Assembly: GCA_022841825.1 (NCBI GenBank)
Contig: JALHQT010000001.1
Coordinates: 1 to 64,000 of the forward strand
Direction: 5' to 3'
Length of the DNA: 64,000 nt
From: Anaerolineae bacterium
GTDB lineage: Bacteria; Chloroflexota; Anaerolineae; Aggregatilineales; Phototrophicaceae
This document shows, piece after piece, positions 25,898 through 36,460 of the stretch. The notes below the pieces were generated by a model. The model did not search any database. It was not told where the DNA came from and saw only the letters and a program-made list of their open reading frames with translations. The translations under genes and the position numbers were made by a program. Every line of letters begins with the position of its first letter. The first letter of the stretch is position 1.

Positions 25898-26749
25898 TTA
25901 GTTTCTCCAGGACTTGCTCACACTCGCAAAGCCAAGACCACCCGGTCCGATGTGTGTACCGATGGTAGGTGTGATGTTGACGATGAGTGTGTCTGACGGT
26001 GCAATGTCTTTGAGGGCATCTTTGAGTTCTTGGGCACCCTTGGCGTTGTCTGCGTGCATGACTGCAAGGCGATCCAGGGGTGCTTGCTCGTGGGCGAGCT
26101 TAACCAGTTCTTCAAAGGCGCGCTTGAACGTCCGTACGCGTGAATGTGATTTCACTTCGCCTTCGCGCACATCGAGGATTGGCTTGATCTGGAGAAGCGA
26201 CCCAAGGCTCGCGCTTGCCCAGCCGACGCGCCCGCTGTGGCGAAGGTATTCCAGTGTGTCCAGTGCGGCGTAAAGACGTTGATTGTTGCGCACGCGTTGG
26301 ACAGCGTCCTTGACTGCGGCGACATCGCCTGTTGCTTCGGCGGTTTCTGCCGCAATAATGACCTGCCAACCCAGCCCCATCGCCACCTGCCCACTGTCGA
26401 TCAGCGTGATTTTCTCCTGGGGAAAATTGCTTGAACCCAGGCGGAATGCGTTATAGACCCCGCTCAGTTTGGCGGGTACGGAGAGGATGACGACATGGTC
26501 GGCTTCTTTAAGCGCTTCTTCGACGACGGGTTCGACGAGCCCCGGCGGGAATGCCGACGTCTTGGGTACTGGGCGGATGTGGGGAAGCTGACGATAGTAT
26601 TCTTCGCGTTTGAGCTGGACGCCGTCGTCAGCAAAGCTGTTTCCATCGTAGTTGACGAAGCATGGCACAACTCGGATATGATGTTTTGACAGAAGATCTG
26701 AGGGAATGTCACAGGTGCTGTCACAAATCACACGTATTTTCTGAGCCAT
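25898..26749 (-). CDS. DegV family fatty-acid-binding protein (FakB type)
   Basis: A 283-residue DegV protein. FakB proteins bind a fatty acid and present it to FakA for phosphorylation. The canonical contacts are present: VICDSTCDIP at the N-terminus, PKTSAFPPGL, SVPAKLSGVYNAF, LLQIKPILDVREG and the C-terminal GTHIGPGGLGF. It follows a second, diverged DegV gene by nine bases and a FakA-like gene, so the three form a fatty-acid kinase operon. Preference for saturated or unsaturated chains cannot be told. Confidence 0.9.
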   Translation of the reverse strand: MAQKIRVICDSTCDIPSDLLSKHHIRVVPCFVNYDGNSFADDGVQLKREEYYRQLPHIRPVPKTSAFPPGLVEPVVEEALKEADHVVILSVPAKLSGVYNAFRLGSSNFPQEKITLIDSGQVAMGLGWQVIIAAETAEATGDVAAVKDAVQRVRNNQRLYAALDTLEYLRHSGRVGWASASLGSLLQIKPILDVREGEVKSHSRVRTFKRAFEELVKLAHEQAPLDRLAVMHADNAKGAQELKDALKDIAPSDTLIVNITPTIGTHIGPGGLGFASVSKSWRN

Positions 26750-26758
26750 CTTGCATTC

Positions 26759-27577
26759 CTATTCCGTTACATTCTCTAGTATGGCGACGACTATCGCGCC
26801 TTTGCCGACGAGCGTTGCTAACGAAGGATTATAAACGAAGATGTCGAAATGTCCCTCTAATTCACTGATCATGCGTTCATGCATCCGATGTGCAGTGTCT
26901 GCTGATAGATGATCGTGCTGGATGACAATGTGCGCGTGCTGCCCGAATTCCGCCGCGAACTCGAACAGCCGCTCAATTGCCTGAGCGCGGGTTCTCGCCT
27001 TTTCGACCGCGAGCAGACGACCTCCTTCGACCGCCACCAGCGGCTTGACGCCGAGCATCGCGCTAAAGAAAGTGTGCTGCGGACTGAGGATGCCCGCGCG
27101 AGACAACTGCTCGACATTTTCCACGTACAGCATTGTGTAGCTATGCGTGAGCAGACTGCGCAGCGAGTTTTCCAGGATGTCGAGGGTGGTTGGCTGTTGG
27201 ATCAGGGCATGTGCGCGCAAGGTCAGGAGCGCTTGAGCGGCTGAAAAGGTCTGGGAATCGAAAACGCGGATTGGGCAGGCTCCCGCCGCCAGGCGCGCGC
27301 CCGCCTGCGCCTGTTCCCAATGCCCGGAGATGTGACATGACGGCGTGATACAGAGGATGCCACTATGATCGCGCGATGCTTCGAGAAATGTCTGCGCGTA
27401 GTCCTCTGGTCGCGGCGGCAGTATCGACGCACTTCGTTCTGCTAGCCCCGCTTCGGGCGGACTGCTGTTCCGGGCACGGCTATCACTTTGGACGACCGTC
27501 ACCGACAGTTCCGGGTTGGCGAGGAGCGTGCCAGCTGCCGCACTGCTGTCGGTGACAATGTGCAGACGTGGCATCAC
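26759..27577 (-). CDS. Diverged DegV family protein (FakB-like)
   Basis: A 272-residue DegV-fold protein, clearly less conserved than its neighbour. RLHIVTDSSAA at the N-terminus, CITPSCHISGHWEQAQ, and FSAMLGVKPLVAVEGGRL match the DegV blocks, but the TS-x-P motif is altered to ILPPRPEDY and the HxGPG tail appears only as YNPSLATLVGKGA. It may bind a different acyl chain or no longer serve FakA. The ATG at 27577 overlaps the fakA stop in ATGA, showing tight coupling. Confidence 0.82.
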   Translation of the reverse strand: MMPRLHIVTDSSAAAGTLLANPELSVTVVQSDSRARNSSPPEAGLAERSASILPPRPEDYAQTFLEASRDHSGILCITPSCHISGHWEQAQAGARLAAGACPIRVFDSQTFSAAQALLTLRAHALIQQPTTLDILENSLRSLLTHSYTMLYVENVEQLSRAGILSPQHTFFSAMLGVKPLVAVEGGRLLAVEKARTRAQAIERLFEFAAEFGQHAHIVIQHDHLSADTAHRMHERMISELEGHFDIFVYNPSLATLVGKGAIVVAILENVTE

Positions 27578-29307
27578 TCGATGGCGATCATGTATGGATA
27601 GAGCGGTTGCCCGCCAAAGACGATTTCAAAGTCGAGCGCGTCATACTCTTCCGCTAGCGCTTCGGCAAGGTTGCGCGCGTCGCGCTCGGTCGAGGTATCA
27701 CCATAATAAATGGTGATACGTTCGTGGCGATCTGCATCTGCTTTGTGCAGAAGCTCGCGCGCAACTTCGGTGATGTCATCGCCGGCAACGGCGAGGACAT
27801 CGTTGATCAATCCGATGAACTGCCCCTGCTTCACCTTAAGGTCGTCGATTTCGACATCTCGCGTGGCGCGCGTGATTTCGGCAGTGACCATGTGACTGAG
27901 CATTTCCATCATCGATTTGACGGTCTCGTCCAGGCTGGCTGGAGGGTCACCGCTGATGGAATTCTGGTACTCAAACATGGCGGCGATTCCCTGCGGGATC
28001 GTGGTGCTTGCGACGACGCGGATCTGTTTGCCGCCAGGTGCCTGTTCCGCCGCATGTTTCGCAGACAATACGACATTCTTGTTATTCGGGAGGAGGATGA
28101 TCTCCGTATTGGGCAGCGCGTCGATGGCGCTGAGAAAGTCGCCCGTGCTGGGGTTCATCGTCTGCCCACCCGTGATGACATACGCTGCACCCATCTCCTC
28201 GGTGAAGATGCGCTGGATTCCTTTGCCGCTGGCGACGGTGATCACCGCGACACCCTCAACGGGGGCACCCATCACGCTGCCGGGGCTGCTGCCGCCTTCG
28301 CGCTCGGCGCGCGCCTGCACATACTGCTGGTACTGGCGGTGCATGTTTTCGACCACGATGTCGTCAATATCTGCACCGCTCTCAATAGCGTAATTGAGCG
28401 GTATGCCGGGGTTATGGACATGGACATGGACTTTGATCAGGTTGCTATCGCCGACCACGAGCGTTGACCAGCCCATTGCCTGGATGTCTTCGCGGACTTT
28501 GTCGATGTTCATGTTTTCGCCATACATCAGGAACTGCACGTCGTAGCCATAGCCCTCATCATCTTCTGGGACGAGCGCGTCTTCCCACGCCTCACCTTCC
28601 TGAATAACCGCTGCTGCGGGTGTGTTGACGACGATTGGCGTCACAGGCGCACTGACATCCTTGCCGCACAACGCGCGCAGCATGCCCTCGAAGATAAAGA
28701 CCAGCCCCTGCCCGCCCGAGTCTACGACACCGGCTTTCTTGAGCAGCGGCAGTTTTTCGGGAGTCCGGCGCAGGGAGGTGCGACCAGCATAGAGCATGGT
28801 TTTGAGCATGGCGACCAGGTCTTTTTCGTGCTCGGCGCGCGTCAGAACGGCGTCTTTGATCTCGCGCGCAACCGTCAGGATTGTGCCTTCGACCGGCTTT
28901 TCGACCGCGCGATACGCCATCTCGACTGCCGCGATGCAGGCTTGTGCGAGCAGTGGTGCCGTCAGCGTTTCGTGTCCTTCCAGCGCCTTCGCCGCCCCTG
29001 CCCAAATCTGGGAGAGGATAACGCCGCTGTTGCCACGCGCATTGCGCAGCGCGCCATCCGCGAAGACGCGCGCCAATTTGCCGACATGCTGCTCTTCAAC
29101 GTTGGCTATCTGGCTCCAGGCACCGCGCATCGTCAGGAGCATGTTGGTGCCTGTATCGCCATCCGGAACCGGGAAGACGTTCAGTTGATTGACTCTGTCC
29201 TTGTTGCGTTCCAACCATAGCACGCCGCCGACCGCCAGGCGTTTGAGCAGGTATCCATCACAAACGGTATTGCCGCTTTCGCGGAACATCGCGCGTGTAA
29301 TTGTCAT
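27574..29307 (-). CDS. fakA: Fatty acid kinase catalytic subunit FakA (DAK2 domain protein)
   Basis: A 577-residue DhaL/DAK2-domain kinase. FakA phosphorylates fatty acids held by FakB to acyl-phosphates that enter phospholipid synthesis through PlsX/PlsY. The ATP/Mg site is seen as NVFPVPDGDTGTNMLLT, and ALRNARGNSGVILSQIWAG is the second DhaL block. The central and C-terminal domains (about 210-577) are as in FakA, including ITGGQTMNPSTGDFL. It is followed directly by two DegV genes, which supports this function. GAGG precedes the ATG at 29307. Confidence 0.93.
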   Translation of the reverse strand: MTITRAMFRESGNTVCDGYLLKRLAVGGVLWLERNKDRVNQLNVFPVPDGDTGTNMLLTMRGAWSQIANVEEQHVGKLARVFADGALRNARGNSGVILSQIWAGAAKALEGHETLTAPLLAQACIAAVEMAYRAVEKPVEGTILTVAREIKDAVLTRAEHEKDLVAMLKTMLYAGRTSLRRTPEKLPLLKKAGVVDSGGQGLVFIFEGMLRALCGKDVSAPVTPIVVNTPAAAVIQEGEAWEDALVPEDDEGYGYDVQFLMYGENMNIDKVREDIQAMGWSTLVVGDSNLIKVHVHVHNPGIPLNYAIESGADIDDIVVENMHRQYQQYVQARAEREGGSSPGSVMGAPVEGVAVITVASGKGIQRIFTEEMGAAYVITGGQTMNPSTGDFLSAIDALPNTEIILLPNNKNVVLSAKHAAEQAPGGKQIRVVASTTIPQGIAAMFEYQNSISGDPPASLDETVKSMMEMLSHMVTAEITRATRDVEIDDLKVKQGQFIGLINDVLAVAGDDITEVARELLHKADADRHERITIYYGDTSTERDARNLAEALAEEYDALDFEIVFGGQPLYPYMIAIE

Positions 29308-29345: not shown

Positions 29346-30017
29346 CTATTTCCCTAAAGCGGCGTTTCTAAGCCGCGCAATACCTTCCTGGACACTGTAC
29401 TGGCTGTTGTAAACCGCCGAGCCACCCACGAGCATATTCGCACCAGCTTCGACAGCGGCGGCTGCGGTCGACTCGTTGATCCCGCCATCAACCATCAGGT
29501 CTGTAGGAAGCTGCATTCTGCGAAGCAGCGCGCGCGTCTGGCGTATCTTATCCAGCGTTTGGGGGATGAGGGACTGCCCGCCGAAACCCGGATTGACCGT
29601 CATGATGAGGATAACATCGACCAGTGAGAGGATTTCCGTAAGGACGCCGACAGGAGTGTGGGGATTTATGGCTATTCCTGCGCGGCAGCCAAGCGCTTTG
29701 ATCTGTGTGAGGGTGCGGTGGATGTGGAAGCCCGTTTCCCAATGAATATGGATCGTGGCGGCACCCGCTTTGGCGAACGCCGAAAGCATGTTCTCTGGTT
29801 CAACCATCATTAGGTGAACGTCCAGCGGCAGGGTTGTGGCGCGCCGCGCCGCTTCAACCACCAGGGGTCCCATCGAAATGTTCGGCACGAAGCGCCCATC
29901 CATCACATCGATATGAATGTAATCAGCTCCGCCTGCTTCTGCGTCGGAAAGCTGCTGCCCCAGTCGAGTGAAATCCGCTGACAGGATTGATGGACCAATG
30001 TGGATGGTTTCCGACAA
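29346..30017 (-). CDS. rpe: Ribulose-phosphate 3-epimerase
   Basis: A 223-residue TIM-barrel enzyme interconverting ribulose 5-phosphate and xylulose 5-phosphate in the pentose phosphate pathway. The family motifs are GPSILSADFTRLGQQL, HIDVMDGRFVPNISMGP, LDVHLMMVEPE, MTVNPGFGGQ and VDGGINESTAA, covering both metal-ligand histidines and aspartates. The start is TTG at 30017, giving the typical length. It is the first gene of a minus-strand unit running to comEC; 38 bases separate it from fakA. Confidence 0.96.
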   Translation of the reverse strand: MSETIHIGPSILSADFTRLGQQLSDAEAGGADYIHIDVMDGRFVPNISMGPLVVEAARRATTLPLDVHLMMVEPENMLSAFAKAGAATIHIHWETGFHIHRTLTQIKALGCRAGIAINPHTPVGVLTEILSLVDVILIMTVNPGFGGQSLIPQTLDKIRQTRALLRRMQLPTDLMVDGGINESTAAAAVEAGANMLVGGSAVYNSQYSVQEGIARLRNAALGK

Positions 30018-30066
30018 CGCGCGTACACCTTATGCCAGGATGCTGACAATTACCAGTCGGGCGGTA

Positions 30067-30094
30067 TTGTATTGTCTCTTCAGACAATTGTCGA
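30067..30094 (-). promoter_or_regulatory. Promoter of rpe with an inverted repeat in its spacer
   Basis: On the minus strand TCGACA (30094-30089, five of six) and TACAAT (30072-30067, five of six) are 16 bases apart. The spacer is nearly filled by a perfect 7-bp inverted repeat, ATTGTCT-CTTC-AGACAAT (30071-30088, plus-strand reading), which could be an operator. A DNA-bound protein there would block polymerase. The predicted transcript starts near 30060. Confidence 0.5.
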
Positions 30095-30181
30095 ACATCA
30101 GAATAGTGCCGCCCGCGAGATAAACACTCTTCTACAATTTAGAACAGAGTTGGCGCGGCAGAGTTGCGCAGGGGGGCGAGT

Positions 30182-30210
30182 TTCTGAAATGGGAGTACCA
30201 CGAGTATACT
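30182..30210 (+). promoter_or_regulatory. Candidate promoter of the hydrolase-ligase gene
   Basis: TATACT (30205-30210, five of six) is a good -10; TTCTGA (30182-30187, three of six) is a weak -35 at 17 bases. The transcript would start about 30 bases before the GTG at 30249, and GAGGG at about 30237 is the ribosome site. Confidence 0.4.
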
Positions 30211-30248
30211 TCGCGTGAGAATAGCTTTGAAGTGATGAGGGATTTATT

Positions 30249-32726
30249 GTGGAAGTTGATCTTGAACTCTATCGTGAAGAACTTACAGTCGAAGAAGACC
30301 CGCCTGTTCGCCTGAGCTATATCGAGGTCGTGCCGGAAATCCCAATCGGTACGATGGTCTTTGTCCATGGTTACGGCGGTTATGCAAAACAGTGGCAGTA
30401 CCAGCTCAAAGCCTTCTCAGACCATTATCGCGTGATCGCCTACGATTTGCGCGGTCATGGGCGCTCCGATGCTCCATACAGCCGTTATACGATGGACGAG
30501 ATGCAGGCGGATTTGGATACTCTGCTTGCGAAGCTCGAAGTTAAGCTGCCGATCATCCTGCTGGGGCATTCATTCGGCGGGGCAGTCGTGACCGAGTTCG
30601 CGCATCGTCGCCCGGACGCAGTGTCACGGCTGGTACTGGTGGCGACCACCGGGGAATACTCCCTGTTTCCGGCAGCGGCGGCGGCGCTGCGACTGCCGCT
30701 GGCGGTGCTGCGTCCTATAAGGCGTATGGTGCGTAAGCAGCTCGCCGCAGAGGCGCACGCGCTGAAATTTCTTTATCGCAACACGATGCGGAAGTGGAAC
30801 GGCTGGGACAAGTTTCCCGAACTCAAGATGCCCGTGCTGGTGATTCGTGGCGAGCGCGACCAGGTTTATCCGACGGCGGCATTCGAGCAGGTCGCGCGCG
30901 TCATACCGGATGCAGAGGATGTCAATATCGGCGTTTCCAGTCATCTCGTACCGTTGGAACGGGCGGACGCGGTCAATCGTGCTGTTGAGCGCTTTGTTGG
31001 GACTATTGAGGGCGAGGCATCGTGGCGTAACCAGCGTGGACGCCTGGCACTGGCGTTCGACCGTCCCTGGCTGAAGCACTATGACCAGGGCGTTCCGACG
31101 ACGCTGGGTCTGCCGAACCGTGCCTTGCATCGCCTGCTGCACAGTGCTGTGCGCAATTACGGGGCGCGTCCTGCGATCACGTTTTACGGCAATACGATGT
31201 CCTATCGCGATCTGGATGACGAGGTGAATCGCCTGTCCAACGCGCTGCGCTCGCTCGGCGTAGAACGGGGTCGGCGTGTGATGATCCTGCTGCCGAACAG
31301 CCCGCAGTTCATTGTCGCTTACTACGCAGTGTTGAAGGCGGGTGGGGTGGTTGTCTCAACCAGTCCGGTGAACACGCGCGACGAACTCCTGCGCCAGGTG
31401 ACGGATAGCGACGCGGATGTCCTGATCACGCTGACGCTCTACAGCGCCACCGCGCGTGAGATCAAGCAGCGTTCCCAGCTTCGCGCCGTCATTTTTGCCA
31501 ACATCAAGGACTATATGGGGCGCGCGGCGAAAGCCGCCTTCACGGTGACTCGCGAGGTGCGTGAGGGACATTTGCTCGCCGACGGCGTGGGTCAGGGGGA
31601 ATACCTGTGGACACAACTGTTATACGCGCACCCGTCTTCGCGCCCGCAGATCGAAGTGAGCGCGGATATGCTGGCGATCATCCAGTATACAGGGGGCACG
31701 ACGGATAAGCCGAAGGGCGTGATGTTGAGTCATCGTGCAGTGCTGGCAAACGCATTGCAAACGCTGCACTGGATTGGATCACTAAGAGAAGGGCGCGAAG
31801 TTGTGCTGGGTGTACTGCCGTTCTCGCACTCCTATGGTATGACGGCGGCGATGAATGTGTCGATTGCCTTGGGCGCGCGCCTGGTTGTCCTGCCAACATT
31901 CCGCACTGAAGAGGTCTTGCAGACCATCCAAAAAGAGAAACCGACCTTGTTCCCCGGCGTGCCAACCATGTACATGGCGATCAATCAGTTTCCGAATGTG
32001 CGCAAGTACGGTATTCGCAGCATCAAAGCGTGTATCAGCGGGGCGGCACCGCTGCCTGTCGAGGTGGCGGAGGCGTTCGAGAAGTTGACGAAAGGACGCC
32101 TGGTCGAAGGCTATGGGCAGACGGAAGCGGCGCCCGTGACGCACGCAAATCCGATGGATGGGACCCGCAAGGTGGGCAGCATCGGCATTCCGCTGCCCAA
32201 TACGGATGCCAGAATCGTCGATCTGGTGACGGGAGAGACGCTGCCACCGGGGCAGATCGGCGAGCTTGCGGTGCGGGGTCCCCAGGTGATGGATGGGTAC
32301 TGGCGAAATCCTGAGGCAACTGAGCAGGCGTTAGGCGCCGACGGTTGGCTGATGACGGGAGACATCGCGCGTATGGACGAGGATGGCTACTTCCAGATCA
32401 TCAGCCGTAAGAAAGAGATGATCCTGGCGGGAAAATACCAGGTTTACCCTCGTGATGTCGAGGAAGTGCTGTATGAGCATCCTGGTGTGAAAGAAGTCGC
32501 GGTTGTCGGGCTGGCGCAGGCGGGCACGGAGGGGCAGCGAATCAAGGCATATATCGTGCCGCGTTCGGGAACCCGCTTGAGCAAAGATGAGCTGTTGGCG
32601 CTCTGCAAGCGCCGCCTGAAGGAATACGCGGTGCCCTGGGAGATCGAGTTTCGTGAGGAACTGCCGAAGAGCTTCGTCGGGAAGGTGCTACGACGACTAC
32701 TTATGGAGGAGCCGGAGGAACGTTGA
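30249..32726 (+). CDS. Fused alpha/beta hydrolase and acyl-CoA synthetase
   Basis: An 825-residue two-domain protein. Residues 1-260 form an alpha/beta hydrolase: oxyanion HGYGG, nucleophile elbow LLGHSFGG (Ser108), acid in VIRGERDQVYP and a late histidine in VSSHLVPLE. Residues 275-825 form an AMP-binding acyl-CoA ligase: QYTGGTTDKPKGVML is the phosphate loop, EGYGQTEAAPV the adenylate motif, and LMTGDIARMDEDGYF and GKVLRR the C-terminal motifs. The fusion suggests that an ester or thioester is hydrolysed and the released fatty acid is activated to acyl-CoA. The GTG start at 30249 follows GAGGG. It is divergent from the rpe-fakA unit. Confidence 0.88.
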   Translation: MEVDLELYREELTVEEDPPVRLSYIEVVPEIPIGTMVFVHGYGGYAKQWQYQLKAFSDHYRVIAYDLRGHGRSDAPYSRYTMDEMQADLDTLLAKLEVKLPIILLGHSFGGAVVTEFAHRRPDAVSRLVLVATTGEYSLFPAAAAALRLPLAVLRPIRRMVRKQLAAEAHALKFLYRNTMRKWNGWDKFPELKMPVLVIRGERDQVYPTAAFEQVARVIPDAEDVNIGVSSHLVPLERADAVNRAVERFVGTIEGEASWRNQRGRLALAFDRPWLKHYDQGVPTTLGLPNRALHRLLHSAVRNYGARPAITFYGNTMSYRDLDDEVNRLSNALRSLGVERGRRVMILLPNSPQFIVAYYAVLKAGGVVVSTSPVNTRDELLRQVTDSDADVLITLTLYSATAREIKQRSQLRAVIFANIKDYMGRAAKAAFTVTREVREGHLLADGVGQGEYLWTQLLYAHPSSRPQIEVSADMLAIIQYTGGTTDKPKGVMLSHRAVLANALQTLHWIGSLREGREVVLGVLPFSHSYGMTAAMNVSIALGARLVVLPTFRTEEVLQTIQKEKPTLFPGVPTMYMAINQFPNVRKYGIRSIKACISGAAPLPVEVAEAFEKLTKGRLVEGYGQTEAAPVTHANPMDGTRKVGSIGIPLPNTDARIVDLVTGETLPPGQIGELAVRGPQVMDGYWRNPEATEQALGADGWLMTGDIARMDEDGYFQIISRKKEMILAGKYQVYPRDVEEVLYEHPGVKEVAVVGLAQAGTEGQRIKAYIVPRSGTRLSKDELLALCKRRLKEYAVPWEIEFREELPKSFVGKVLRRLLMEEPEER

Positions 32727-32763: not shown

Positions 32764-33792
32764 TTACGCGAAGCTCTTCATGACTTCGGCGAGCGTTTGC
32801 GCGGACGGGCGCAGCGCCTCGTCGCCAAGATGCGCCAGCGGCGTCTCGACCAGCTCCATCGTCTCGCCAAGCGTCGGACGCGGCTCTTCGTAGTAGATGA
32901 GTCCGGTCAGGAAGAGCGACTCGCGCTGTCCTTTCTCAAGGAGATTGATCGCCTGCTCGCGGCTGCGCGGGTCGTGATTGTTATCAATCGCCTTCAGCTT
33001 GATGTAAGAACCATCATGCATCTTGACGCTGATCGTGCCTTCATAGTCGCCTTCGACGGTGATTTCGTCTTTGGCGGGAACGTAGCCCTTCGGCATGTAT
33101 TCGATGCTGTGCAGCGGGATTTCGTTTTCCTTGCCGTAGTCGTAGCCCTTGGTTGAATCCGGGGCGTTGTTGAATGTCACGCACGGGCTGATGATGTCGA
33201 GGACGGCGGTGCCGCGATGGGCGACTGCTGCCTTGATCAGTGTTTGCACCTGTTTGGCATCACCACTGAAACTGCGCGCGACGAACGTGCAGCCGCCGAC
33301 GATGGCTTCCAGGCACAGATCAATCGGCGGAAGATCATTGATGCCGTAGTACTTCAGCTTTGCGCCTTCGTCACTTGTTGCGCTGAACTGACCCTTGGTC
33401 AAGCCGTACACACCATTGTTTTCGATGATGTAGACAATCGGAACATTGCGGCGGATCAGGTGCTTATACTGCCCGAAGCCGATGCTGCCGGTGTCGCCGT
33501 CGCCGCTGACGCCGATGGCAGTCAGATTGCTGTTGGCGAGTGTCGCGCCAGTTGCCACGGACGGCATACGACCATGAACCGCGTTGAAGCCATGCGAGCC
33601 GCGCAGGAAGTAGGCGGGCGTCTTGCTGGAGCAGCCAATCCCGCTGAACTTGATGACTTGCGTCATGTTGAGGTTCAGATCATACGCTGCGCTGATGATC
33701 TGGTTTGAGATCGAGTCGTGACCGCATCCGGGGCAGAGGGTGCTTTGCGCACCCTTGTAGTCGGCGCGTTCCAAACCAATTGCGTTTGCCAT
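32764..33792 (-). CDS. korB: 2-oxoacid:ferredoxin oxidoreductase beta subunit
   Basis: A 342-residue TPP- and 4Fe4S-binding subunit. Cluster cysteines are in STLCPGCGHD and SGIGCSSKTP, with a later one in SPCVTF. The TPP motif begins GVSGDGDTGSIGFG and ends at ENNGVYGLTKGQ. With the adjacent alpha subunit it oxidises a 2-oxoacid to the acyl-CoA and reduces ferredoxin; 2-oxoglutarate (KorAB) is the best guess, pyruvate or branched substrates are possible. It follows korA by two bases. With acnA in the same window it fits a ferredoxin-linked TCA cycle. Confidence 0.9.
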   Translation of the reverse strand: MANAIGLERADYKGAQSTLCPGCGHDSISNQIISAAYDLNLNMTQVIKFSGIGCSSKTPAYFLRGSHGFNAVHGRMPSVATGATLANSNLTAIGVSGDGDTGSIGFGQYKHLIRRNVPIVYIIENNGVYGLTKGQFSATSDEGAKLKYYGINDLPPIDLCLEAIVGGCTFVARSFSGDAKQVQTLIKAAVAHRGTAVLDIISPCVTFNNAPDSTKGYDYGKENEIPLHSIEYMPKGYVPAKDEITVEGDYEGTISVKMHDGSYIKLKAIDNNHDPRSREQAINLLEKGQRESLFLTGLIYYEEPRPTLGETMELVETPLAHLGDEALRPSAQTLAEVMKSFA

Positions 33793-33794
33793 GA

Positions 33795-35642
33795 TTAGTG
33801 GGTCTCCCGCTTCGTAATTTCGCTAACGATCCAGTGTGCTGTCATGGGAAGGGTGTCGCCCAGGGCGAGGCTGGTCATGTGCTGCGTGCTCTTGTCGGTT
33901 TCCATACGGACGAGCTGCGCAAGCTGTCCATCGAAGTTGTTCTCCAGGACATAGACGCGGTTGTGAGTCTGGATGAATTCATGGACTGAGTCCGCCAGCG
34001 GCAGCGCGCGTACACGCATGTAGTTGGTCTGGATACCCTGCGCTGCGAGGATATTGCGCGCTTCAACAATCGCCGGGTCGTTCGAGCCAAAGCTGAGGAT
34101 GCCGATGGTTTTGTCCTTGTCCCAGTCCGTGACGGGCTGGGGCAGTTGGTTGCGGGTGCTGTTGATCTTGTCCGTGATTCGCCCAAGACCCTTCATCCAG
34201 TCGTCGCCGCGTTCGCTGTACGTGCCCATGTCGGTATGACCCGTGCCGCGCGTGAAGTACGCCGCACGCGTGTGATCGACACCGGGGATCGTGCGGTAGG
34301 TGATGCCATCGCCGTCGTAGTCACGGTAGCGATACCATTCGCCACCATGAGATTCCATGAAGGCTTCCAGTTTTTCTTTGTTCGTCAGCACTTTACCGCG
34401 ATTGAGCGGCTGATCGGGATAGCTGAACTGGTCGCTCATCCAGATATTCATGCCCAGGTCGAGGTCACTCATGACAAAGACTGGGGTCTGGAATTGCTCG
34501 GCGATGTCGAAACCGCGCCAACCGAACTCGAAGCACTCTTCGACGCTGCCGGGCAGCAGTACGATTTGACGGGTATCGCCGTGTCCGAGGATATGGATGA
34601 ACAGCAGGTCGCCCTGGCTGGTGCGGGTTGGCAGCCCCGTGCTGGGACCCATGCGTGTGATGTCCCAGATGACACATGGGATTTCCGCATAGTAGGCAAG
34701 CCCAGTGAATTCCGCCATCAGGCTGATGCCGGGACCGCTGGTTGAAGTCAGGGCACGCGCGCCTGCCCATCCTGCGCCGATAATCATGCCGATTGCCGAC
34801 AGCTCATCTTCTGCCTGGACGATGGCGACCGTGTCTTTGCCGGTCACAGGGTCCTTGCGGATATGCTTGTGGTCGAGGATGCCGTCGATCATGCTCGTGG
34901 ATGGGGTGATCGGGTACCACGCAGCAATCGTGATGCCGCCGAAGAGCGCACCGAGCGCGGCTGCCTCATTGCCTGTGATGAGGATTTTGCCTTCGGTCAG
35001 GTTGAGCGTCTCAAAGCGGAAGGGATCAGCCTTGGTCACGTTGGCGCTTGCCCAGTCGTAGGCGTTCTGAATGACGCCGAAGTTCATCGCGGTGGGCTTC
35101 TCTTTGCCATTGAAGGTGTCGAGCAGCGCTTTGCGCACGATGTCGAGTGGCATGTTGAACAGATACGCGCACACGCCTACGTAGACCATGTTCGAGATGC
35201 GGTCGCGGAATTCCGACGGGATTTCGGACTTGGCGACAGTCTCTTTCACGGGAATTTCGTAATAGGTGATGTCCGGGCGGCTTTGCCCCCACTTCCAGTC
35301 GGCGGGGATGATGCAGACGCCGCCGCTGGGCAGGTTCGCGATGTCTTCGGCGGCGGTGTCCTGGTTCATCACAACGCCGATCTCGGTGGTTTCGCGCCGG
35401 GCGATGTAGCTGTCTTTGCTGGCGCGGATGGTGTACCACGTCGGCAAGCCCTTGATGTTGGATGGGAACAGGTTCTTGGCGCTGACCGGTATGCCCATGC
35501 GGAACAGCGAACGAATGAGGACTTCGTTCGAGGTCTGGCTGCCTGAACCATTCTTCGTGGCAACCATCAGTGCAAAGTCGTTCACGACTGCTTGCATAGA
35601 TTGTTGGGTTTGGAGTTCAGGTTGTATGTTCAATGCGCACAT
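33795..35642 (-). CDS. korA: 2-oxoacid:ferredoxin oxidoreductase alpha subunit (gamma-alpha fusion)
   Basis: A 615-residue fused subunit. Residues 15-195 are the gamma domain (NDFALMVATKNGSGSQTSNE). Residues 215-600 are the alpha/pyrimidine domain with GNEAAALGALFGG and AAWYPITPSTSMIDGI, the YPITPS motif being diagnostic. The stretch RMGPSTGLPTRTSQGD is the conserved substrate loop. No extra ferredoxin-like domain is present, so an external ferredoxin is needed. GGAG lies nine bases before the ATG at 35642. It heads a two-gene operon just downstream of a GntR regulator on the same strand. Confidence 0.92.
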   Translation of the reverse strand: MCALNIQPELQTQQSMQAVVNDFALMVATKNGSGSQTSNEVLIRSLFRMGIPVSAKNLFPSNIKGLPTWYTIRASKDSYIARRETTEIGVVMNQDTAAEDIANLPSGGVCIIPADWKWGQSRPDITYYEIPVKETVAKSEIPSEFRDRISNMVYVGVCAYLFNMPLDIVRKALLDTFNGKEKPTAMNFGVIQNAYDWASANVTKADPFRFETLNLTEGKILITGNEAAALGALFGGITIAAWYPITPSTSMIDGILDHKHIRKDPVTGKDTVAIVQAEDELSAIGMIIGAGWAGARALTSTSGPGISLMAEFTGLAYYAEIPCVIWDITRMGPSTGLPTRTSQGDLLFIHILGHGDTRQIVLLPGSVEECFEFGWRGFDIAEQFQTPVFVMSDLDLGMNIWMSDQFSYPDQPLNRGKVLTNKEKLEAFMESHGGEWYRYRDYDGDGITYRTIPGVDHTRAAYFTRGTGHTDMGTYSERGDDWMKGLGRITDKINSTRNQLPQPVTDWDKDKTIGILSFGSNDPAIVEARNILAAQGIQTNYMRVRALPLADSVHEFIQTHNRVYVLENNFDGQLAQLVRMETDKSTQHMTSLALGDTLPMTAHWIVSEITKRETH

Positions 35643-35676
35643 TCGGGATTTCTCCAGCTTTCCATTTCTCTTTAAG

Positions 35677-35693
35677 CCGACACTTCGTGTCGG
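35677..35693. repeat. Short perfect hairpin in the korA leader
   Basis: CCGACAC (35677-35683) and GTGTCGG (35687-35693) form a 7-bp stem with a 3-nt loop. It lies 35 bases upstream of korA and about 80 bases after gntR. No U-tract follows on the minus strand (CTTAAAG), so it is either an operator or a leader RNA hairpin and not an obvious terminator. Confidence 0.4.
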
Positions 35694-35770
35694 AAGGTAC
35701 CGATAGGGAATGAGCGAACGTCAGATAACAACGAAGCGGAAAGTCTCCTTTCACAATGGGATCTGTTTTT

Positions 35771-36460
35771 TTAAGGTGTAGGCGTCAGATTCGGGTGATA
35801 GCGCAGGCGTGTGTGCTCCAGAAACAACTGCTGACTGCGCTCATATTCCCCAGCGCAAATCGCATCCAGAATCCGTTCATGAAAGTCCCAAACCAGCGTA
35901 TGATAATCGTAATCGGCGTACCGATTGATCTCGACGGCTTCATAGGCATCCCAATACGCTTCCAGGACGCCCAGGACAAACGGATTTTCTAATCGCCTGA
36001 AGACCGTCAGATGAAACGCGCGATGTTCGTCGTTTGGGATTTGAATGTGGATGTTGTTCACGTTGAGTTTGGCGCGTGCGCCTTCGATGCAGCGCTGCAT
36101 GTCGGCTTTGTCGTCGTTTGTGAGCCGGGCACATGCTTCGTTCCAGAATGCCATTTCCAGATGATTGCGCATTTCTGAAAATGCCTCAAACCAATCCGGA
36201 TGTATGGAAAGGGCATAGAACAAGCTCAACCGGATAGCGGGCGTGAACGAGTACTCGCGGAGTTTCATCCCCGTCTTGCTGCGCACTTCGACGACGCCAA
36301 GCGCCCGCGCGACTTCCAACTGCTCTCGAACCTTGCTGATACTGATGCCTAAATGATCATCAGCCTGGAGTTCGCTAATGGTCGGCAAGCGATCTCCAGG
36401 TTGAAAGTGTTTCTTGACAATGTAGTCGAGTAGATCCGAGTCTAAGTCCAGACGCGCCAT
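35771..36460 (-). CDS. GntR family regulator with FCD domain
   Basis: A 229-residue FadR-type regulator. The N-terminal winged helix (about residues 1-75) holds KHFQPGDRLPTISELQ and LGISISKVREQLEVARALG, the usual helix-turn-helix. An all-helical FCD ligand domain follows (about 85-220), with histidines in PNDEHRAFHLTVF and VWDFHERILDAI that normally hold a metal and an organic acid. It lies upstream of korAB on the same strand, and overlapping palindromes sit in its own leader. Control of itself and possibly of korAB is inferred; a carboxylate effector would be typical. Confidence 0.85.
   Translation of the reverse strand: MARLDLDSDLLDYIVKKHFQPGDRLPTISELQADDHLGISISKVREQLEVARALGVVEVRSKTGMKLREYSFTPAIRLSLFYALSIHPDWFEAFSEMRNHLEMAFWNEACARLTNDDKADMQRCIEGARAKLNVNNIHIQIPNDEHRAFHLTVFRRLENPFVLGVLEAYWDAYEAVEINRYADYDYHTLVWDFHERILDAICAGEYERSQQLFLEHTRLRYHPNLTPTP

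Follow-up and report, generated by a model that had tools for sequence, protein, structure and literature searches.

A conserved alpha/beta hydrolase-acyl-CoA ligase fusion in Chloroflexota, placed opposite fatty acid kinase genes in a single genus

A single gene in an Anaerolineae genome joins a predicted serine hydrolase to a predicted acyl-CoA ligase and stands divergently to genes of a fatty acid kinase locus, which raises the question of what the fused protein does and whether its position has a regulatory meaning. The gene was analysed within the window, by which we mean the whole stretch of 64,000 nucleotides examined here (contig JALHQT010000001.1, positions 1 to 64,000). In the original prediction, a fatty acid was cut free and activated by this one protein, and the intergenic region shared with the kinase operon could switch acyl groups between CoA and phosphate fates. 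We found that the fusion is conserved and of moderate interest, and that a switch with fatty acid kinase is unsupported.

The reading frame of the fusion gene coincided exactly with the predicted one, and its GTG start was supported by two relatives that align with ATG at the same codon (Table 1). The fusion protein scored above the Pfam gathering scores for Abhydrolase_1 (103.9 bits, gathering score 25.8), AMP-binding (324.8 bits) and AMP-binding_C (66.4 bits), confirming that an intact hydrolase and a full acyl-CoA ligase are combined in one protein. The serine of the GHSFGG motif was residue 108, as predicted, and it aligned as part of a complete Ser-Asp-His set (S108, D204, and H232). The ligase domain carries the P-loop, A5, and A7 motifs and the C-terminal lysine (Table 1). 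The fusion gene is real, and its recurrence in many genomes shows that it is not an accident of sequencing or assembly.

Table 1 Positions of the fusion gene, its parts and the divergent neighbouring genes in the window
Feature	Coordinates	Strand	Basis
Fusion gene, alpha/beta hydrolase and FadD-like acyl-CoA ligase (predicted activities), 825 aa	30249..32726	+	GTG start after GAGG
Alpha/beta hydrolase domain, residues ~1-252; S108, D204, H232	30249..31004	+	Pfam, model, PDB folds, triad
Interdomain linker, residues 253-263	31005..31037	+	pLDDT <50 in model
Acyl-CoA ligase domain, residues 270-825; P-loop, A5, A7, C-terminal lysine K812	31056..32723	+	Pfam, NCBIfam, model
Intergenic region rpe/fusion, 231 bp	30018..30248	.	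Sigma-70-like matches only; no shared inverted repeat
rpe, ribulose-phosphate 3-epimerase; true head-to-head neighbour of the fusion, outside the fusion system	29346..30017	-	TIGR01163, 272.8 bits (cut-off 212.6)
fakA/yloV-like DAK2 protein gene; neighbour, outside the fusion system	27574..29307	-	TIGR03599, 550.2 bits (cut-off 396.1)
degV-family gene 1; neighbour	26759..27577	-	TIGR00762, 119.7 bits (cut-off 99.7)
degV-family gene 2; neighbour	25898..26749	-	TIGR00762, 252.7 bits (cut-off 99.7)

A survey for the fusion, which had been proposed as a check, showed that it recurs. Within the window's family, 28 of 61 genomes, counting the window's own, carry it (the matches in G029 and G056 are cut by contig ends), as do at least 28 of 400 sampled Chloroflexota genomes. 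The latter count comprises 27 matches spanning almost the entire query, the window's own among them, and one match by profile (G352), and it is a lower bound because two candidates per genome were scored. A scan of genome contigs with six peptides yielded 60 loci, which included 28 fusions (L038-L065) and two more that are cut by contig ends (L080 and L092). The record names of these fusions were Chloroflexi or Chloroflexota, Anaerolineae, Anaerolineales or Anaerolineaceae, and Candidatus Aquidulcis (L052). One record, L046 (JAPUDW010000117.1), is labelled Bacteroidetes, and its fusion shares 74% identity with that of the window; it is probably a mis-binned Anaerolineae contig. An apparent restriction to Chloroflexota is suggested by this contig scan and by a plasmid search. 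Among the papers listed by literature searches, we recognised none as dealing with this hydrolase-ligase fusion.

In the hydrolase domain, S108, D204, H232, and the HG at positions 40-41 were invariant at all 76 places compared, a set from which copies contained in one another had been removed and in which L123 and L124 bridge separate genes. The triad was also invariant across an alignment of 59 sequences. In the ligase domain, E620, G621, Y622, E626, T703, and D705 were present at 76/76 places, and position 812 was lysine at 73 places and threonine at one, with two places not covered. The P-loop was variable among the 76 places, with D, G or A at position 486 and P, S or A at position 488; such ligases usually have a stricter P-loop, and this variability was counted against a bifunctional enzyme. 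By fold, Pfam match, and triad, the N-terminal domain is a predicted serine hydrolase of the alpha/beta hydrolase superfamily, and by its domains, core motifs, and C-terminal lysine, the C-terminal domain fits an AMP-forming, FadD-like acyl-CoA ligase, again as a predicted activity.

Neither domain reached a curated NCBIfam cut-off among the models considered (the best 25 of 142 for the ligase and the best 25 of 35 for the hydrolase). The best-scoring models for the ligase domain, within those best 25 of 142, were long-chain fatty-acid CoA ligases, all below their cut-offs. Among them, the FadD/LcfA ligase models PRK05605, the best match at 555.9 bits, and PRK06710, at 543.4 bits, aligned with the domain nearly end to end; the fusion differs from these ligases by its N-terminal hydrolase and by falling short of the equivalog cut-offs of 766 and 1116 bits, respectively. 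Identity with MenH-MenE was considered and rejected, since the scores lay below the cut-offs for MenH (TIGR03695, 84.7 against 208.55 bits) and for MenE (NF005307, 306.8 against 748 bits; NF002966, 240.1 against 556 bits). In the AlphaFold2 model, the whole fusion chain had a pLDDT of 86.3 with a poorly defined linker, which was also counted against the bifunctional reading, and the hydrolase domain modelled alone reached 91.9. The ligase model matched adenylate-forming ligases with Z scores of up to 49.1.

The two components were also found as separate genes. In eight loci from two other Chloroflexota families (L184-L186 and L190-L194), an orthologous hydrolase (235-260 bits to the hydrolase-domain profile) lies as its own gene beside a ligase of the same clade as the fused ones, so that these loci resemble the fusion but keep the genes apart. 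A second alpha/beta hydrolase frame was located upstream in all eight (89-115 bits); at L185:5503-9324, for example, two tandem alpha/beta hydrolases precede the FadD-like ligase as a separate-gene counterpart of the fusion. A second alpha/beta hydrolase was also seen near the fusion itself in 11 loci, two of which (L065 and L134) represent one genome. The idea that this is the same component as in the separate-gene loci was rejected on an identity of ~25-29% (one comparison each way).

In a FastTree phylogeny of 116 ligase domains, a clade with support 0.99 united all 74 fused and eight split ligases with those of L080, the contig-cut fusion, and of L188 and L189. The split ligases nested among the fused ones with moderate supports (0.77-0.86, from one FastTree run), which is compatible with fission or with repeated fusion. 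The adjacency of the separate genes and the shared ligase clade suggest that the partnership of hydrolase and ligase is functional, and L188 and L189, which have no hydrolase above 60 bits beside them, argue against a strict dependence of the ligase on the hydrolase. We conclude that the hydrolase-ligase fusion is a conserved Chloroflexota family, encoded either in a single gene or in an adjacent gene pair.

The plasmid search gave seven records in which 80% or more of the query was covered, six of which were seen among the matches listed; by annotation these six carry separate genes, namely four pairs of an AMP-binding protein and an alpha/beta hydrolase (or fold hydrolase) and two menaquinone clusters. 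A haloarchaeal plasmid pair (L198:4935-7320) has the order of the fusion, an alpha/beta hydrolase followed by an AMP-binding protein, with genes overlapping by 8 bases. This possible counterpart differs from the fusion in being two genes and in having ~31% identity over the match. A pair of similar names occurs, by annotation, in three other plasmid records among the matches listed.

The annotated neighbours of the fusion varied by lineage and included rpe-fak genes, a P-type ATPase with an arginase, a second hydrolase with nrdR and ribonucleotide reductase, a two-component system with a GGDEF protein, and a Methyltransf_4 protein. Lipid- or acyl-type neighbours appeared at single loci: a patatin (L144), an acyl transferase domain (L126), and an AMP-binding_C_2 protein (L062). 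No lipid-metabolism gene recurred across lineages among the annotated neighbours, which was counted against the bifunctional reading, and a lipid operon around the fusion was rejected because the neighbours differ by lineage and do not add up to a shared pathway. One family of the class frequently has a further alpha/beta hydrolase, nrdR, and a ribonucleotide reductase gene downstream of the fusion; in one of these loci (L129:2453-6226), the reductase contains an intein. Downstream of the fusion in the window (32764-36460) lie a 2-oxoacid:acceptor oxidoreductase pair and a GntR regulator, which were found within a few kilobases of the fusion in several relatives as well (e.g. L038, L039, L040, and L049).

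The genome of the window contains 10 acyl-CoA dehydrogenase matches, one strong 3-hydroxyacyl-CoA dehydrogenase match, one PlsX-family match, and two PlsY-family matches, indicating that acyl-CoA could be used there. Catabolic use and ordinary phospholipid synthesis both appear possible from these matches. Elsewhere in this genome, two regions (C2:719863-729182 and C2:507646-515138) each hold several adenylate-forming enzyme matches and one acyl-CoA dehydrogenase match.

From this material we infer the activities, substrate, reaction order, channelling, proximity benefit, and metabolic fate of the fusion as follows. The N-terminal serine hydrolase would cleave an acyl ester, lactone, or thioester and so release a carboxylic acid, which is probably a fatty acid of medium or long chain length. 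The C-terminal FadD-like ligase would then convert the freed acid, with ATP and CoA, to acyl-CoA, which may enter beta-oxidation or be re-used in lipids, and the fusion would hold the freed acid near the ligase. The intact triad and the ligase motifs suggest such a release of an acid followed by its activation, and the invariance of the triad, the retention of the ligase motifs, and the existence of separate-gene versions together support cleavage before activation. Release of an acyl group and its subsequent activation by one protein, as originally proposed, may be taken as the best reading of the fusion, and judged from its sequence features we consider a bifunctional acid-releasing and acid-activating enzyme fairly probable.

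The order of the reactions could also be the reverse. Type II thioesterases of synthetase systems remove wrong or stalled acyl groups, and the hydrolase may be an editing or recycling thioesterase that clears such groups from CoA, ACP, or the adenylate, with activation first and hydrolysis second. The pairing of the hydrolase with one ligase clade and a weak Pfam Thioesterase match of the fusion protein (25.8 bits, cut-off 26.4) are consistent with editing, but the scores and folds of the hydrolase are closer to those of esterases and lactonases, and an enzyme that hydrolysed what it had just made would run a futile cycle unless the hydrolysis were selective. An editing role seems rather unlikely to us.

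A role in the degradation of aromatic compounds or lactones, in which a PcaD-like lactonase would open a lactone and the ligase would activate the resulting acid, was suggested by the profile and structure matches of the hydrolase. PcaD (TIGR02427) was its best NCBIfam profile at 113.7 bits (within the best 25 of 35), and the enol-lactonase 2xua was its top structural match (Z 29.5, rmsd 2.3, 237 aligned). The PcaD score is far below the cut-off of 255.85, however, and identity with the 3-oxoadipate enol-lactonase was rejected on that score. The nearest PDB folds, which comprise enol-lactonase, esterases, and haloperoxidase-type enzymes, are nearly tied at Z ~28-29.5, with esterases within 1 Z of the top match, and the ligase is nearest to long-chain fatty-acid ligases within its best 25 of 142 models. 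We regard this role as improbable and return to cleavage of a bound acyl group followed by its activation as the preferred reading.

The remaining question concerns the divergent genes. A FakA operon with two DegV proteins had been placed 230 bases away from the fusion; the divergent FakA-like (YloV) gene and the two degV genes are indeed present, but the gap of 231 bp borders rpe, and fakA comes second, starting ~940 bases from the fusion start. The order of genes leading away from the fusion is rpe, fakA, degV, degV, and recG. The FakA-like protein exceeded the cut-off of the YloV subfamily model and scored 448 against 975 bits for the FakA equivalog NF038248. A FakA-FakB fatty acid kinase makes acyl-phosphate, which is a different chemistry, and its common ground with the fusion is a neighbourhood in one genus only, since the linkage is not conserved.

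The divergent arrangement did not prove to be conserved in the family. The rpe gene stood beside the fusion in 3 of the 28 fusion-bearing genomes, all of one genus; 21 had no rpe within 1.5 kb upstream of the fusion, and in four (L015, L020, L024, and L028) no rpe was seen before the contig ended at less than 1.5 kb. The fusion is thus common without fak neighbours, with no rpe seen beside it in 25 of 28 genomes. FakA was found in 49 of the 61 family genomes, and genomes carrying the fusion (22/28) had it about as often as those lacking the fusion (27/33; Fisher p=0.76). In the 22 genomes with both, FakA and the fusion stood head to head in three, shared a contig at a distance of ~20 kb or more in three (G034, G048, and G050), and fell on separate contigs in 16. 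These results show that the fusion is not associated with fak in the family sample.

Viewed from the kinase side, both degV genes adjoined fakA in all 30 FakA loci examined (of 49), mostly without the fusion. A recognisable rpe lay in the 1.5 kb flank of fakA in 24 of the 30, and in the other six (L157, L159, L160, L162, L163, and L178) it may be farther away or beyond the contig end. The fusion was present in the flank in three (L154, L155, and L156), all from the window's genus and one being the window itself. Of the two degV genes, the first shows the more rapid divergence, with 29-43% identity to the window genes against 39-78% for the second in the 29 other FakA loci (some matches being partial), and both stay next to fakA.

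Among 10 sampled genomes of the window's genus, three had the fusion, six had FakA without the fusion, and one (G046) had neither. In wider flanks of 49 fusion loci, some from genomes present twice (e.g. L061/L131 and L065/L134) and 45 with at least 2.4 kb upstream, rpe-fakA stood head to head with the fusion only in L038 and L039, the two relatives already counted with the window among the three family genomes. At locus L049, rpe lies ~4.3 kb from the fusion with two other genes between them, one of which, a P-type ATPase gene, adjoins the fusion and is also its upstream neighbour in L041-L047. This pattern suggests that the adjacency in the window arose by local rearrangement, through gene loss or insertion. 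Placement of the fusion across from rpe-fakA-degV-degV-recG is a local feature of one genus and lends no support to a shared switch.

The proposed regulated switch of the divergent pair between acyl-CoA and acyl-phosphate fates was weighed against these distributions and against the intergenic region. All three fusion-bearing genomes of the window's genus have the arrangement, with Rpe 65-66% identical; the three intergenic regions have identical short blocks in common, ATTGTATTGT being one; and region 29950-30320 has three sigma-70-like matches, more than the mean of 0.4 in shuffles. No terminator was found in the rpe/fusion intergenic region, and no inverted repeat or palindrome was common to the three regions, L039 alone having two imperfect ones. 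Since the arrangement was seen in three of the 28 fusion-bearing family genomes, FakA frequency in the family does not depend on the fusion, six genomes of the genus have FakA but lack the fusion, rpe sits between the fusion and fakA, and the P-type ATPase pattern points to gene loss or insertion, we consider such a switch highly improbable. A tempting regulatory story about fatty acid kinase, being unsupported, is thereby removed.

OleB, which is reportedly tied to the class III haloalkane dehalogenases, has an Asp nucleophile, and NF006754 is taken here to be an OleC-like model. An OleBC-type beta-lactone or olefin enzyme, in which a beta-lactone decarboxylase is fused to a beta-lactone synthetase, has the same domain order as the fusion but is scarcely credible as its identity, given a Ser nucleophile at 76/76 places, a ligase score of 154.9 bits against the NF006754 cut-off of 478, and no oleA- or oleD-like gene or ole cluster among the annotated fusion neighbours. 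In Actinobacteria, typically Micrococcales, and in Granulosicoccus, oleBC gene fusions have been reported (PMC7064751); like the present fusion, they place an alpha/beta hydrolase-fold domain ahead of an AMP-dependent ligase domain within a single chain.

Release of an acid by the hydrolase followed by its activation by the ligase leads to a wider and more tentative proposal, that the fusion may represent a Chloroflexota-wide, uncharacterised enzyme that makes acyl-CoA directly from esterified or lactonised acyl groups within a single chain, has separate-gene counterparts in other families, and bypasses the fatty acid kinase pool. If this were true, the freed fatty acid would pass from hydrolase to ligase without joining the pool used by fatty acid kinase. 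A phylum rich in uncultured bacteria gains a defined candidate for the conversion of bound acyl groups to acyl-CoA, and the fused and separate-gene forms, as natural versions of one pair, make it possible to ask whether fusion as such speeds the transfer from acid to CoA.
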